Assembly: GCA_900169235.1 (NCBI GenBank)
Contig: FWCC01000123.1
Location: 172,704-236,703, forward strand
Direction of reading: 5' to 3'
Length of the DNA: 64,000 nucleotides
Origin: Zarea fungicola
Lineage: Eukaryota > Ascomycota > Sordariomycetes > Hypocreales > Cordycipitaceae
Each line of letters opens with the position of its first letter. The first letter of the stretch is position 1. Both the position numbers and the translations under genes were made by a program. This document shows positions 14,531 to 50,429 of the stretch, in pieces. Below the pieces are notes generated by a model that saw only the letters and a program-made list of their open reading frames with translations, was not told the DNA's origin and did no database searches.

Positions 14531-16034
14531 GATAACAAAGTTGATAAGCTGAGTCTTGTGCAGCAAAGTGATGATTGATTGCCTTCCTAGAGGCGTATAC
14601 GGCCTTTTATGTAGCGAGACGATTGGGTGCAAATCAGTTTATGGCGACCTATGGCCGGTACTAAATTGATGGCTGGTCCTCAGGTGTTTCCGCTTCGATG
14701 CTACACGTGCAAGCCCCGTGGCGTCAATATCGAAATGGATTCAGGTACTAGTTCGTTGTTAGTGAGCCAAACTCGGCATTCTTACAGAAGCACTAGGCCT
14801 TACATTGTGAGAACACTGATTTCATGATGATACATCTTCGGAAGGTTACAAAATCGAAGTGACCATCTTGTATGCCACACTATCGTGCAATCAAAGTATT
14901 CTTGACTTGTTTGAAGAAAGGTATAGACAGCTGTCCATCTACTCTAACCAAAATTATGCAATATGTTTTTAAGAGGTCGCAAGTCTGAGCACCGACACCC
15001 TCCCAGAGCCTGCAGCGTCTGATGAATCATGGGCGCGATAATGTGCTTTTGCGTCGATGGAATCGGGCCTGTCAGATACTGGGGATTAATGTGGAGATGT
15101 ATTCCACTTGTCTGACGGGCGTCGGGGTCGAAGAGGGAAATATTGATCTGAGCAAGTTCGAGTCCTCGACTAGCAACACCTGCACAGATGGGAATTGACC
15201 GTGGGTTACGCCACCTCCTATTCCAGAAACCTCAGACACCAATCAGCCAGCTACCAATCAGCCGCTCTTTACGAAAGAGTTCGCTGGATGACGCTAGTAA
15301 ATAGCTTGAATCACGTTCGTGCATTTCTGACCGGCTTCGGAGATATCGTACCTCTAAAATGACTCGGCGTATTGACCAGATCTAAGTATTAAGGTGAGCG
15401 AATATCCAGCCACAATCCACAGTAAGGATTTCGCTCCGACTATGTTCAAGGTCCGTAAAACTCAATGGTTATCGGTAAATGAGAAAATGGGTTGCCATCG
15501 ACGTCGGTGTCCCATCACGCAGAATTACATATTTAAAGACGGAGTCAGGAGGATCTGGAGTTGTGCATGAACACATTTTTCAATTCTCTGGATCAATATA
15601 GGACCAAAATAAAAAATAAATAGCTACATACAGGGTACCTAGCGACCGGCATCGCAAATTACCCAACAGGGCTACTGACGCACAATGATACATATGTTGT
15701 ATCGCAATTTCTCTTGTTGGTGTAAACAAAGCTATTCTGGCCGCGGATCCAAAACAATCCCACTGTAGTATAGAAGAAAATGTTATGTCAAGGTTCCAGA
15801 TTTCTGATGTTCATTTGTCGGAAGAATGGTCAACAATAGCCTTCCACAGCAGTGCAGTAAGCACGATGTCTATTTATTCTATTGCATATTTATGGCTTTT
15901 AAGATGAGCGACCTGCTAATATTAAATCCATCTAATAGCTAAAACGCGGCTCGAAACGTAAAACACCAGTCTTCACCCATTCGTAAGCCAACATAACAGC
16001 AAATACGTCCGCCGGATTTCAACAATTGGAATAT
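14531..16034. other. Intergenic, no gene seen
   Basis: This stretch holds the promoter side of the GH5 gene and then about 1.2 kb of AT-rich DNA upstream of the tRNA gene, with no coherent coding region. Confidence 0.45.
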
Positions 16035-16181
16035 GGTTTGGTGGTCTGTAAGTAACTCACAATGGCTCCACATCAGCTTTGAAATCAATCCTAACAACTC
16101 CACAGAGCGGTATGATTCTCGCTTAGGGTATACCCTGAGTCAATATGCGAGAGGTCCCGGGTTCAATCCCCGGCCAGACCC
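16035..16181 (+). tRNA. tRNA-Pro (anticodon AGG) with two introns, one spliceosomal-type in the D arm
   Basis: Three exon blocks, 16035-16047, 16106-16128 and 16146-16181, join into a 72-nt tRNA. The acceptor GGTTTGG pairs with CCAGACC, with one G-T wobble. The D arm is TGGTCT plus AGCGGTATGAT. The anticodon stem CTCGC pairs with GCGAG around loop CTTAGGGT (AGG at 16125-16127). The T arm is CCGGG TTCAATC CCCGG, and the discriminator is C16181. A TTTTT Pol III terminator starts at 16185. The 17-nt intron at 16129-16145 sits one base 3' of the anticodon, the canonical position, and its CCT can pair with the anticodon. The 58-nt intron at 16048-16105 is non-canonical: it starts GTAAGT, has CTAAC at 16091 and ends CCACAG. 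It splits the A box, which is perfect (TGGTCTAGCGG) once joined. The gene could be functional by an unusual route or inactivated. Confidence 0.85.
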
Positions 16182-16564
16182 TTCCTTTTTGCACTTTGTT
16201 CGTTTGAAATCAATGCTCATGTTGACTTTCCTTTTTTGCTACTGCAGGAATTGTCTAGAAGAGTTCAGTGGCTGTCCAGGGTCAGAAACAACAGATGCTC
16301 CCAACAATGGCTGAGAAGCTGCCGCCTGTTTCGGAAAGCATAGATGTTGCTCTCCTGCGACCTCCCATTTCCGCTGTATTATTTGATCCGCGCCGTGTAA
16401 AAATAGGAACAGCTACTGGGAGGAGCGAATAAGACACTCTAATCCAATGTCATGATAACTAATGGAGAAAATTTCAAGGAGACATGTAAACGGCGCAAGT
16501 TTAGATTATCTGGATACGGGAAGTCGTCTGTTCTGCTACACTGTTCCATCTTAAAAGAACAAGC
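16182..16564. other. Short intergenic region
   Basis: A Pol III terminator-like T run (16185-16189) follows the tRNA. The rest is the 3' flank of the tautomerase gene with no further feature seen. Confidence 0.4.
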
Positions 16565-17137: not shown

Positions 17138-17748
17138 ATTGAGAAGAAAGTCCTAGGTTGGGCTCGGATAGAAGGGGTTTTTTTTTACAGTTATTTCTTG
17201 ATTAAACTCGCTGGACGGTACTTGTTATAGTTCCACGGCACAGTTCCTTTCTGCAGCCGAAGGCCGGTCTCGGTGTAAGTCGATATGGACACCCCCGTCA
17301 CACCACGGTAACCAACCACAGGTGGAGAAAACTTGGGATTGATTGGTAATAAACATTGGCATCACCAAGTCTCCGTCGGAGGTTTACTTTCCTGGGCATC
17401 ATTGCGTAAGCTCCATTACTCATGGCATAATATTTAGGGCGCCCCGCTAACGCAATCGACAAGTAAATTCAAGAACAGCAAGCCTCCATTTGCCCGGAAG
17501 TGGAGAGGCGCTGTACTGGTCAAGTTGATCGTACGAAGGGCGCAGATGATTGCATCTCGGCTTAGTGCCATCGGTATATGTGCTCGGGTTCTGTAGGCAA
17601 TTCTGCCGAGTTTCTACAGAGAATTGTGAAATGAAAAGTCCCCGCGCCCGACGCATTGCAGACTGCATTCAATTGCATTAGTCTTGCAGTCCATCTTATT
17701 ACGACCTGTCATTGCATAATACCACATCACCCATTCTGAACCCAAATC
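17138..17748. promoter_or_regulatory. Divergent promoter region between tautomerase and BCAT genes
   Basis: A 611-bp gap lies between two divergently transcribed start codons. It contains a poly-T tract near 17180 but no recognised operator. Shared regulation is possible and is inferred from arrangement only. Confidence 0.4.
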
Positions 17749-18975
17749 ATGACGATCCTGTCCAAAATCCAGCAAGGCAATGCCACCGGAACCGTGCCCA
17801 GTGCCGTCATTCAAGATGACGACGGCAACCAGACCCCTTGCACGGACAGCATGATGCTCTGGCAGTGGGATTCTGAGACTGGTTGGAAAGCGCCCGAGAT
17901 TCGCCCTTACGGGCCACTCGCCATTATGCCGTGTGCAAGTGTCCTGCACTACGCGACAGAATGTTTCGAGGGCATCAAGGTATACCGCGGCCACGATGAC
18001 GCGCTGCGCTTACTCAGAGTGCGTCTCAACTGCGAGAGAATGCTCCAGTCGTCCGTGAGAACGGGCCTGCCCGCATTCGACGCTGGGGAGCTGGAGGATA
18101 TCCTCAAAGAATTCGCCGCGCACGAGGCAGCGACATGGCTGCCCAAAGGCAGCCAGGGCAAGACGCTGTACCTGCGCCCAGCGCACATTGGCACCACTGC
18201 GGCGCTGGGCCTGCAGAAGCCTCGGCACGCTCTCCTCTATGTGGTCGCTACGTTGCTACCTGGCTTCTCCGCCAAGGGGGACGGTATGAAACTGCGCACG
18301 TCGCCTGCCGAGATTGTGCGCGCCTGGCCGGGGGGCTTTGGCAACAGGAAACTGGGCGCAAACTACGGAGCGACCATCCCACCGCACGACGACGCCGTGC
18401 AGGCTGGGTTTGACCAGGTGCTGTGGCTCTTTGGGCGGGAAGGCTATGTGACCGAGGCGGGTGCGAGCAATTTCTTTGTTGTGTGGAAGACAAAAGAAGG
18501 CCAGTATGAGCTCGTCACTGCAGGGTTGGATTCTGGTACTATCTTGGAAGGGATCACGAGACGCAGCATCCTGGATCTTGCGCAAAACTACCAAGAAAAG
18601 CCGGAGGCGTGGAGCATCAGCGGAGAGTCCGTTGCGCCGCTGAAGGTTGTGGAGCGGGACTTTTCTATTGACGAGATTCGCGAGGCCGTGGTGGAAGGTC
18701 GTCTTGTGGAGGCCTTTGCAGCAGGCACCGCCGTAAGTGAAACCAAACTCGGGAAATAAGGTTGGAAAATTCATAAGAAAATGGTCTGCTAACAGTGAAT
18801 TGTGCGTGTTTAGTACTTTGTTAAGCCAGTTGACCTTATTCATCATCGCGGCGAAAACATTGTGATCCCCTTGCCGTCTGCTACTTCGCCTTCCTATGCA
18901 AGACTCATAAAAGGGTGGCTTTCCGACATTGTTTTTGGCGTGAATGACCCTTTTGGATGGACCACAGAGTTATGA
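17749..18975 (+). CDS. Branched-chain amino acid aminotransferase (class IV, PLP-dependent)
   Basis: Two exons, 17749-18732 and 18814-18975, give 381 aa. The PLP lysine is in GNRKLGANYG (K201). Other family landmarks are ATECFEGIKVYR near 70-80, YLRPAHIGT, EAGASNFFVVW and, across the intron, AFAAGTA joined to YFVKPVDLIHHRGENIVIP. It transaminates Leu, Ile and Val with 2-oxoglutarate, or the reverse. There is no clear mitochondrial presequence (MTILSKIQQGNATG), so a cytosolic isoform like yeast Bat2 is plausible. It sits head-to-head with a tautomerase. Fungal secondary-metabolism clusters sometimes carry extra BCATs, but no synthase is present nearby. Confidence 0.92.
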
Positions 18976-47237: not shown

Positions 47238-50011
47238 ATGCCTGGCAAGAGCATTACAGAGGCGAATCCGCCACCACTGTCTAGCCAGCTCCCAGATTCG
47301 ATACTGGAGCTCGCGGCCAAAATCCCAGAGTCGGCACTCGACGCGAATACGCTACAGGGCCTAAAGGACTTTCAGCAAGCGGCATGTTACATTGCGGGGG
47401 GTATGTGAGGCATGTGCCTTTTTAATCACTTTGCAGTTTCCATGGTATACTATATGGCCACTGACTAATTGAAAGCCATGATCTTCCTTCGGGACAACGT
47501 GCAGCTTGAGCGTGAGCTTGCATTTAACGATATCAAACCCAGACTACTTGGTACATGACCACAATAGCTTAGCCTAGTGAATCAAAGTAAAAGTCCTGTG
47601 GCTAACGGTCCTCAAGGGCATTGGGGTACTTGTCCTGGCCTGGTACTTGTATGGTCGCACATCAACCTGCTCATTCAACGACACGATATCGACACCATAG
47701 TCGTTGTCGGCCCGGGCCATGGAGCTCCTGCAGTACTGGCCTCTCTCTGGATCGAAGGATCGCTTGAGAAATTTTACCCCGACACGTATAGCGTCGACAA
47801 GACAGGCCTGCGAAATTTGATTGCCAGATTTTCAGTCCCGGGAGGCTTCCCCAGGTATGATTGGTGACCTGCAGTGGATGAGAATTCTGGAAAAATGGAC
47901 TAAATGAACCTATGAATATCTCTAGTCATGTCAATGCCGAGACTCCAGGTGCCATTCATGAAGGTGGCGAGCTCGGCTACGCTCTCGCCGTCTCGTTTGG
48001 CGCGGTGATGGACCGACCAGATTTGTTAGTTCCTTGCATAGTGGGCGATGGCGAAGCCGAATCCGGTCCAACAGCAGCGTAAGAATGACAACCCAAGCAA
48101 TGTTATGTGCGCAAGTTTCTGATGGCAGTAGCGCTTGGCATGCGATCAAGTACATCGACCCCGCTGAATCTGGTGCCGTTCTACCGATTCTGCACGTTAA
48201 TGGTTTTAAAATCAGCGAAAGAACCATCTTTGGCTGCATGGACAACAAAGAGCTCATTTCTCTATTTTCTGGCTACGGGTACCAGGTTTGTATCGTTGAG
48301 ACGCTGGAAGAGATCGATCAAGAGCTGTTCAACGCCATGGAGTGGGCTCTCGGCGAGATTCGCAGCATTCAGAGCAAGGCGCGCTCCGGCTCGCCGATTG
48401 CGAAACCAAGATGGCCGATGATAGTTCTCCGAACGCCCAAAGGGTGGACAGGCCCAAAAAAAGTGGACGGGGAGCTTATTGAGGGCTCTTTCCGATCCCA
48501 TCAGGTTCCTGTACCCAACGCCGGAAATAACAAGGAGCATTTATCCATTGTTGAAGCCTGGCTGAGAAGTTACGGCACCGAAAATCTTCTCAAGGACGGA
48601 AAGCCGTCATCGAGCGTCGTTTCAATCCTACCAAGTGAAGTCTCCAAGAGACTAGGGCGAAACAAGTTGACGTATAATCCATACAGCCCACTCAAAATGC
48701 CACAGTGGCAAGACTTTGGCATAGGCCAGGGAGAGTCTGCTAGCTGCATGAAGGTAACTGGTGACTTTCTTAAACAGATCGCAGAGAAGAACCCAAAGTC
48801 TTTTCGGCTATTTTCTCCAGATGAGCTGGAGAGTAATAAACTCAATGCTGTTCTGGACAACAGTGGTCGCAATTTCCAATGGGACCAGTATTCGCGCGCG
48901 CAAGGTGGCCGTGTCATTGAGATCTTGTCAGAGCACTGTTGCCAGGGTTTCATGCAGGGTTACACTCTCACTGGCCGTACAGCTTTGTTCCCAAGTTACG
49001 AATCATTCTTGGGCATTATCCACACCATGATGGCACAATACTCCAAGTTCAATAAGGTAGCGAGGGATGTGAGCTGGAGAGGAAATCTCGCCTCCATCAA
49101 CTACATTGAGACGAGCACATGGGCTAGGCAGGAACACAATGGATTCTCGCACCAGCAGCCATCGTTCATTGGCGCTGTCTTGAATTTGAAAGCAGAAATG
49201 GCGCGAGTGTACCTCCCGCCTGACGCAAACTGCTTCCTTTCCACGGTAGACCACTGCCTCCGGTCCCAGGACAAGGTGAACCTCATAATTGGCTCGAAAC
49301 AGCCGACTACCGTGTATCTTACGCCCGAGGAAGCTGCGATACACTGCCAGCGCGGAGCCTCTATTTGGCAGTTTGCATCGACAGGCAACATTACCAGTGA
49401 GCCAGATGTCGTGCTTGCTGGTATCGGCGTTGAAGTTACTTTCGAGGTGATCAAAGCCGCTGAGTTACTGCATAAACTTGCTCCTGACTTGCGCGTACGG
49501 GTTATAAACGTCATCGACCTGTTTGTCCTTGCCCCCAAGTCACGCCATCCACATGCTTTAAGCACCAATGAATTTGCTGCCATGTTCACTCTGAACAAAC
49601 CTGTGTATTTCAACTACCATGGTTACGCTACGGAGCTGCAAGGTTTACTCTTCGGGCAGTGCAACACGCAGCGCATGACGGTAGAGGGGTATAAGGAAGA
49701 AGGTACGACGACGACACCGTTTGACATGATGCTTTTGAACGAGTTGAGTCGATTCCATATTGCAAAATGGGCATTGGAGCGCGCAGCCGAGTCAACAGCT
49801 TTGAACGGTGTTAAGGGGCAGATCCAAGAACTGATTAAGCAGGTTGTTATGCAAAGAGACAGTGTAAAAGATTACATAATTGAAAATGGAACTGGCAAGT
49901 ATTTTCTGGTGGTCTCATGGTCGGAAAGTCGGACTACAAGTACAAGGCTAATAAAGCTGGGTGCAAGATCCCGAAGACATATACAGAAGAGCGCAACTCG
50001 ACCGAGACTAG
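47238..50011 (+). CDS. Xylulose-5-phosphate/fructose-6-phosphate phosphoketolase
   Basis: Exons 47238-47400, 47476-47550, 47617-47854, 47926-48078, 48132-49894 and 49968-50011 give 811 aa, the normal Xfp length. Motifs: GHWGTCPG rebuilt across intron 2; [21 protein letters not shown] joined to [11 protein letters not shown], the thiamine-diphosphate site. [18 protein letters not shown] follows. In exon 5 are [28 protein letters not shown] and [12 protein letters not shown]. The last intron appears to be GC-AG (donor GCAAGT, acceptor GTGCAAG). Splicing it gives a short C-terminus ending QLDRD, while reading through adds about 50 unrelated residues. The enzyme splits xylulose-5-P or fructose-6-P with phosphate to acetyl-P. 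Acetate kinase lies tail to tail 418 bp away. Confidence 0.93.
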
Positions 50012-50429
50012 TTGTCCATCCAAAATTGACGACATTATACACCACAACTATCATCATCTAACTAAATAGACTACTCTCATCTGGATTACGGAGAGAAAAA
50101 TCTTGTAGTTATAGATAGCAGACTGGCATAATGCATATTGGTGGTGCGTCCTCGCAGGAAAATAAATGGCAGCAACAACTGTAAGAAAGAGTACAAGGCA
50201 TTATGTCACAAATAAAATGTGAAATCTTTTGCGTTCCATGACACTTTGCACTGTGATGAATGCAACAGGAACCTTGTTGGGGCTGTATATTTGTGTCCGT
50301 GACGGTGTAAAATTGTAAATACCCATCCCGTTCTGTGATTCACTCGCACGAATCCATGACAGCATGTAAAGCATCGCAACATTCAACCAAGCCATTTAAC
50401 TGATTTTCCTTGCGAATGGAAGAAAGCAA
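50012..50429. other. Shared 3' flank of phosphoketolase and acetate kinase genes
   Basis: 418 bp between two convergent stop codons. No gene seen. Confidence 0.5.

Follow-up and report, generated by a model that had tools for sequence, protein, structure and literature searches.

A tRNA-Pro(AGG) gene interrupted by a spliceosomal-type intron, and a wider set of split tRNA genes in the same fungal genome

Can a tRNA gene whose D arm is interrupted by what looks like a pre-mRNA intron give rise to a normal tRNA, and by which machinery might this happen? The question is raised by a gene in a stretch of 64,000 nucleotides from Zarea fungicola (the window), which is part of contig C305 of the assembly searched here (43.1 Mb, 456 contigs). 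Positions 16035–16181 of the window read as a tRNA-Pro(AGG) gene that is interrupted between tRNA positions 13 and 14 and that has an anticodon intron as well. The initial annotation had claimed this combination of a spliceosomal-type and an anticodon intron, and all of its elements were recovered, the signals being read from the sequence:

15831–16034, plus strand: upstream unit of about 195 bp, common to a second split copy on contig C299 (flank alone, 146 identities in 219 aligned columns)
16035–16047, plus strand: exon 1 (5' acceptor strand, positions 8–9, first D-stem strand; GGTTTGGTGGTCT), 13 nt identical to the start of the intact gene L004
16048–16105, plus strand: GT-AG intron of spliceosomal type, 58 nt, between positions 13 and 14; an exact gap relative to L004, and at the same site in the C299 copy
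16048–16053, plus strand: 5' splice site GTAAGT of this intron, kept in the C299 copy
16091–16095, plus strand: branch-site motif CTAAC, 10 nt before the intron 3' end
16104–16105, plus strand: 3' splice site (CAC)AG
16106–16128, plus strand: exon 2a, with the remaining D arm, the 5' anticodon arm to position 37 and the anticodon AGG; 0/23 differences from the C299 copy
16129–16145, plus strand: canonical anticodon intron, 17 nt, at position 37/38; 1/17 differences from the C299 copy
16146–16181, plus strand: exon 2b, with the 3' anticodon stem, variable loop, T arm with B box, 3' acceptor and discriminator C; 0/36 differences from the C299 copy
16159–16169, plus strand: intact B box GGGTTCAATCC, an internal Pol III promoter element by its match to the consensus
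16186–16190, plus strand: T5 run, a Pol III-type terminator; the C299 copy has T6 at this offset

Two protein genes elsewhere in the window place the genome in Hypocreales by the similarity of their products: a branched-chain aminotransferase (17740–18759), with 67% identity to a Trichoderma protein, the best named match, and a phosphoketolase (47962–50061), with 80% identity to a Beauveria protein and 76% to one from Cordyceps.

When the raw window was analyzed, ARAGORN (bacterial settings) called no tRNA anywhere in it and Rfam at its gathering score matched none, and the gene therefore escapes routine annotation. From 400 bases around the gene ARAGORN returned nothing in the unspliced form and a tRNA-Pro(agg) of 72 nt once the 58 nt were removed, with exon 1 paired to the 3' acceptor and one G-U pair among them, which agrees with the joined product of 72 nt predicted at the outset; the 17-nt anticodon intron that it reported differs from 16129–16145 by a shift of one base. 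Excision of each of 191 GT..branch..AG candidates across the window produced a tRNA over the junction solely at this site (one 5' site combined with either of two 3' ends that lie 2 nt from each other), and 1061 candidates excised from five first-order Markov shuffles produced 0 tRNAs. The window has 9 intron signatures, where 30 Markov shuffles averaged 2.2 and reached at most 6, a weak signal to which no weight was given. In the unspliced gene the 58-nt intron breaks the A box, as had been claimed.

A search of the genome with 261 bases around the split gene led to seven places, and the proline loci beyond the window were as follows:

C299, 273318–273522: second split Pro(AGG) copy, with the same split and intron site as the window gene
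C135: L003 and L004, intact Pro(AGG) genes
L005 and L006: intact Pro(UGG) genes
L007: a tRNA-Pro fragment

The joined exons of the window gene are identical to the mature sequence of L004 in 72/72 positions and differ from that of L003 in one. In L004 the identical 13 nt are joined directly to the identical 3' half, and the junction is unambiguous, with T before and G first in the intron, and G last in the intron and A after it; it cannot shift, so the paralogue itself dictates the GT and AG ends and leaves no choice of others. Chance similarity of the 13-nt block is ruled out by this paralogue together with the C299 copy. Between the window and C299 copies the mature exons show 0/72 and the GT-AG intron 11/58 differences (Fisher p=8e-5), which is not like a decaying gene; exon identity beside a changed intron and flank suggests that both halves of the tRNA have been held fixed. 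The proposal that this might be a recently killed gene is contradicted by these figures and by eight further split genes described below. The anticodon intron has 16 nt with other letters in L003 and L004 and 17 nt in the split copies. The fragment L007 (C135:60855), a truncated tRNA-Pro, lies about 600 bp from the intact L003 (C135:61441) in opposite orientation.

The upstream unit of about 195 bp was found in a genome search at just two places, the two split proline genes. On C299 (L008, 4900–5700) it occurs as three diverged tandem copies, one of which ends in the first seven letters of the tRNA followed by letters resembling those just past the tRNA, and the array looks as if tRNA copies had been lost from it. 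A pattern made of the D-arm 3' splice site and the B box gave 4 matches (control, 7), which were the two split proline genes, an intact Arg gene and one place without a tRNA, and a search with the 58-nt intron as query found only itself but missed the known C299 copy, so that it carries no information on the mobile intron proposed at the outset, which, if introner-like, would have many near-identical copies in the genome.

Split genes were also found in other tRNA families of the same genome:

Thr(CGU), C172: 69-nt intron GTAAGT..CTAAC..CAG at 35/36
Leu(AAG), two loci, C123 and C276: 57-nt D-loop intron GTAAGC..CTAAC..AAG
Leu(UAA), C98: 58-nt intron GTAAGC..CTAAC..CAG between 34 and 35; sole copy found
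Trp(CCA), four loci, C318, C341 and two on C357: introns 1 and 2

The joined exons of the split Thr(CGU) gene are identical in 72/72 positions to an intact gene on C170, the flanks being unrelated. The two Leu(AAG) loci show 0/97 differences outside the GT-AG intron, the anticodon intron included, and 11/57 within it (p=9e-6), with unrelated 5' flanks; their introns end in AAG, a less favoured 3' splice site. Four related copies lie on C450 (79–89%), and the one copy read there has an uninterrupted D loop. Excision of 58 nt from the gene on C98 restores a class II Leu(UAA), and in its predicted fold the restored anticodon pairs with the gene's own canonical intron on both sides of the junction. 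The label Thr(tgt) that ARAGORN gave to the unspliced form of this locus was rejected, since it does not suit a class II tRNA and C170 already has a Thr(tgt) gene of class I.

In the tryptophan genes, intron 1 (GTTAGT..TACTAA..CAG, 54–60 nt, at 24/25) is present in three of four loci and exactly absent from the fourth, and intron 2 (GTACGT..CTAAC..CACAG, 53–56 nt, in the variable loop) is present in all four. The stretches of mature exon are identical in 4/4 loci, and the introns are alike in 40–45 of 57–62 columns; with the exon ends chosen, the tRNA has an A31-C39 mismatch. The only match to a pattern spanning the intron 1 junction, with at most 2 mismatches, was the fourth locus, where intron 2 is still present, so that in this one assembly and with this one pattern no intron-free Trp gene was found. 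The single Trp call made by ARAGORN is the same fourth locus, misparsed. All four genes (L136, L137, L141, L142) are followed by a conserved trailer, ATTCCCACC(T/A)TTCGGTG, a possible small hairpin ahead of the T run.

Outside the count of split genes stand two tRNA genes on C226 and one on C391 (L110, L135), which were read as Ala-like, with G3-U70, an anticodon read as CGC, a long canonical anticodon intron and apparently C33 instead of U33; two of the three received ARAGORN calls, one as Ala cgc and one as Tyr gta.

Altogether, 10 split genes were found among about 95 nuclear tRNA genes read: Pro(AGG) twice, Leu(AAG) twice, Leu(UAA), Thr(CGU) and Trp(CCA) four times. They hold 13 GT-AG introns in five isoacceptor families at six sites (13/14, D loop, 24/25, 34/35, 35/36 and variable loop), none of which is 37/38. 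All 13 introns start with GTNNGT or GTAAGC, end in AG, are 53–69 nt long and have a branch motif, CTAAC or TACTAA, 10–12 nt before the intron end. Empty-site paralogues that are exact and have identical exons were found for Pro, Thr and Trp intron 1, and a canonical anticodon intron is also present in the split Pro genes, both Leu families and Trp. Common words near the branch site, which may reflect shared origin or chance, were seen in introns of unrelated tRNA genes (L087, L123, L136, L137), with GTGTCTAAC occurring both in Leu(AAG) and in intron 2 of two Trp loci.

The total of about 95 is the sum of 86 distinct nuclear ARAGORN calls in the sequence read, one of which is the misparsed Trp locus, and the ten split genes; it is approximate, several isotype labels being anticodon-intron misparses and duplicates having been merged by sequence, and it covers part of the genome's set, with 12 listed B-box sites (13 with C415, which the tRNA family search scored as an 86-base tRNA) outside the count. 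A tRNA family search scored 63 of 1250 candidates, among them an odd 156-base tRNA on C98, and the additional genes came mostly from a pattern of B box plus T run, for which one set of results took in only part of its 166 matches. Four B-box sites without an ARAGORN call were read, and three look like chance while one is a C226 gene. Some tRNA labels were assigned presumptively from general features of tRNAs.

U6 RNA is transcribed by Pol III, and the U6 gene of Rhodotorula contains an mRNA-type intron; Tani and Ohshima are said to have found such an intron in U6 of S. pombe, and Canzler et al. (2016) reportedly treated U6 introns in fungi. In the present genome the sole U6 gene found (C377; L069, 1520–1660; 47 scored of 2762 candidates) has a GT-AG intron of 59 nt and reads ...CTAAGGAT|GTAAGT...CACTAAC...CCCAG|GACACGC..., where the letters past the intron are presumably U6 exon by their likeness to known U6 sequences. 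The Rfam U6 match stops inside the intron, whose signals and length, branch spacing included, fit the pattern of the 13 tRNA introns, and which contains a B-box-like stretch, GAGTTCGAAACC. The accessible parts of two papers describe spliceosomal introns in fungal U6 genes (PMC5832005, PMC10484740) and an mRNA-type intron in the maturation of S. pombe U6 (PMC10484740), and the initial premise that spliceosomal introns belong to Pol II transcripts alone does not hold for U6 in these fungi or in the present genome.

From exact insertions, full splice signals, empty sites and the contrast of exon and intron divergence we infer that splicing occurs, and we hold, with a probability of about 0.88, that the 58 nt in the window are an ordinary U2-type spliceosomal intron that was inserted in a proline tRNA gene and is removed to give a normal tRNA. 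Among the three options first offered for the locus, a tRNA made by the spliceosome fits best with the sequence data, and spliceosomal splicing is probably part of how this fungus produces some of its tRNAs. With the arrangement recurring in nine other tRNA genes and in U6, the supply of tRNAs, notably for tryptophan, would depend on the spliceosome. It is likely, from the set of loci read here, that spliceosomal introns have spread across the nuclear set of tRNA genes and that the spliceosome is an obligate enzyme of tRNA processing, the tRNAs for Trp and possibly Leu(UAA) being made only by its splicing, in series with the tRNA endonuclease and probably on Pol III transcripts.

In the pathway that we propose, Pol III would transcribe the split proline gene from the internal B box and the remainder of the A box and stop at the T run; nuclear splicing by the spliceosome would then bring exons 1 and 2 together, after which excision of the canonical anticodon intron would fall to the tRNA splicing endonuclease and ligase, and trimming of the ends to RNases P and Z. 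Spliceosomal removal is expected to come first in Leu(UAA), since the anticodon, which there forms the strand paired with the canonical intron, is itself interrupted by the spliceosomal one. B boxes are kept in the split tRNA genes, and T runs lie 4–23 nt downstream in eight split loci by sequence and are also present at the other two according to the B-box screen, although this is partly a selection effect, as the screen that yielded seven of the ten genes required a T run. Thr, Leu(UAA) and Trp have the A-box letters before the intron; Leu(AAG) has them there up to the last G of the box, whose place is taken by the first G of the intron; and Pro is the only split family in which the A box is broken.

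These promoter features bear on another route, in which Pol II would transcribe the split genes as longer capped RNAs that are spliced co-transcriptionally and from which RNase P and RNase Z cut the tRNA. Spliceosomal splicing is normally coupled to Pol II, and the interrupted A box of Pro, a T5 run in the GT-AG intron of Leu(UAA) that could stop Pol III, and the partly conserved upstream unit before both Pro copies would all suit such a transcript. However, the retained B boxes and downstream T runs, A-box letters that stay 5' of the intron in three families and nearly whole in Leu(AAG), and a like intron in the Pol III gene for U6 argue against it, and we regard transcription by Pol II as unlikely, though worth keeping in mind beside the Pol III pathway.

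Far less probable is a reading of the split copies as dead genes, preserved by chance or gene conversion, with the tRNA supplied from uninterrupted paralogues. Intact Pro(AGG) and Thr(CGU) genes do exist, so those split copies need not be essential, and the broken A box of Pro would agree with loss of function; but exons with 0/72 and 0/97 differences beside intron divergence of about 19%, and the finding of all four Trp loci split, are hard to reconcile with it. Classification as tRNA pseudogenes was rejected on the same grounds, as the mature sequences of Pro, Leu(AAG) and Trp (exons identical in 4/4 loci) show no decay. Gene conversion could account in part for the conservation of exons across copies, yet the anticodon introns of the split Pro genes differ from those of the intact ones, which argues against recent conversion across exon 2.

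An equally remote reading would make these introns non-canonical tRNA introns with a bulge-helix-bulge (BHB) structure, cut by the tRNA endonuclease as in archaea, Cyanidioschyzon merolae and nucleomorphs, for which introns in the D arm and at other positions are described in the accessible parts of PMC4090602 and PMC3978253. With shifts of up to 3 nt a helix of 3–4 pairs could be drawn at each site, a result that is uncalibrated against chance, whereas in strict register the six sites gave 0–2 of 4 pairs on the intron side and 1–3 of 4 in the exon-side alternative, and never 4. BHB introns would also have no reason to show GT, branch motif and AG at near-fixed spacing in 13 cases. Group I or group II introns were rejected, as Rfam recognised no catalytic core and, among 12 loci, matched only tRNA and U6 at E<=0.5.

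In full-text literature searches (open-licence PMC) no described case of spliceosomal introns in tRNA genes was found; the split pattern also gave 0 matches in viral and 0 in prokaryotic contigs, collections that are uninformative on fungi. The tRNA-intron review PMC4090602 has no occurrence of the term spliceosom, and its accessible text names eukaryotic non-canonical tRNA introns only in nucleomorphs and C. merolae. For tRNAscan-SE 2.0 the available part of PMC8450103 describes analysis of noncanonical introns solely under the archaeal search model, a restriction that would account for such genes having gone unseen.

The introns themselves are ordinary, and it is the class of host RNA and the proposed double splicing that are not. 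Fungal U6 introns are the nearest likeness: they too have GT-AG ends and a branch site, and they lie in a Pol III gene whose product is a structured RNA; here the host is a tRNA, in five families and at six sites, and four families have a canonical intron as well. Spliceosomal introns in the rRNA genes of lichen fungi likewise lie in a non-Pol II transcript, but one made by Pol I. According to a title cited in PMC10484740, the B box of Schizosaccharomyces U6 lies in the intron, and U6 of the present genome is alike in this. Fungal U3 snoRNA is likewise a small structured RNA whose genes carry normal spliceosomal introns (PMC5832005, accessible part); it differs in that the host is not a tRNA and insertion is almost only in the first stem-loop. 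Canonical tRNA introns, at 37/38 and removed by the SEN endonuclease and a ligase, are also carried by the split Pro, both Leu and the Trp genes, whereas the GT-AG introns lie elsewhere, are 53–69 nt long and have branch and splice signals. The tRNA introns of archaea, Cyanidioschyzon and nucleomorphs likewise lie outside 37/38, the D arm included, but in the accessible text of PMC4090602 they are BHB-related, or 3–24 nt long in the Guillardia nucleomorph, and spliceosomal signals are not described for them.

Spliceosomal introns and tRNA introns are taught as separate worlds served by separate enzymes, and in the genes described here both would be found in one precursor, with a spliceosomal intron interrupting the anticodon itself in Leu(UAA) and Thr(CGU). 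If this reading is true, U6 is not the only Pol III-type precursor on which the spliceosome acts, the gain of introns is not limited to Pol II genes, the reading of codons would depend on splicing, and tRNA genes have probably been missed in annotated fungal genomes.
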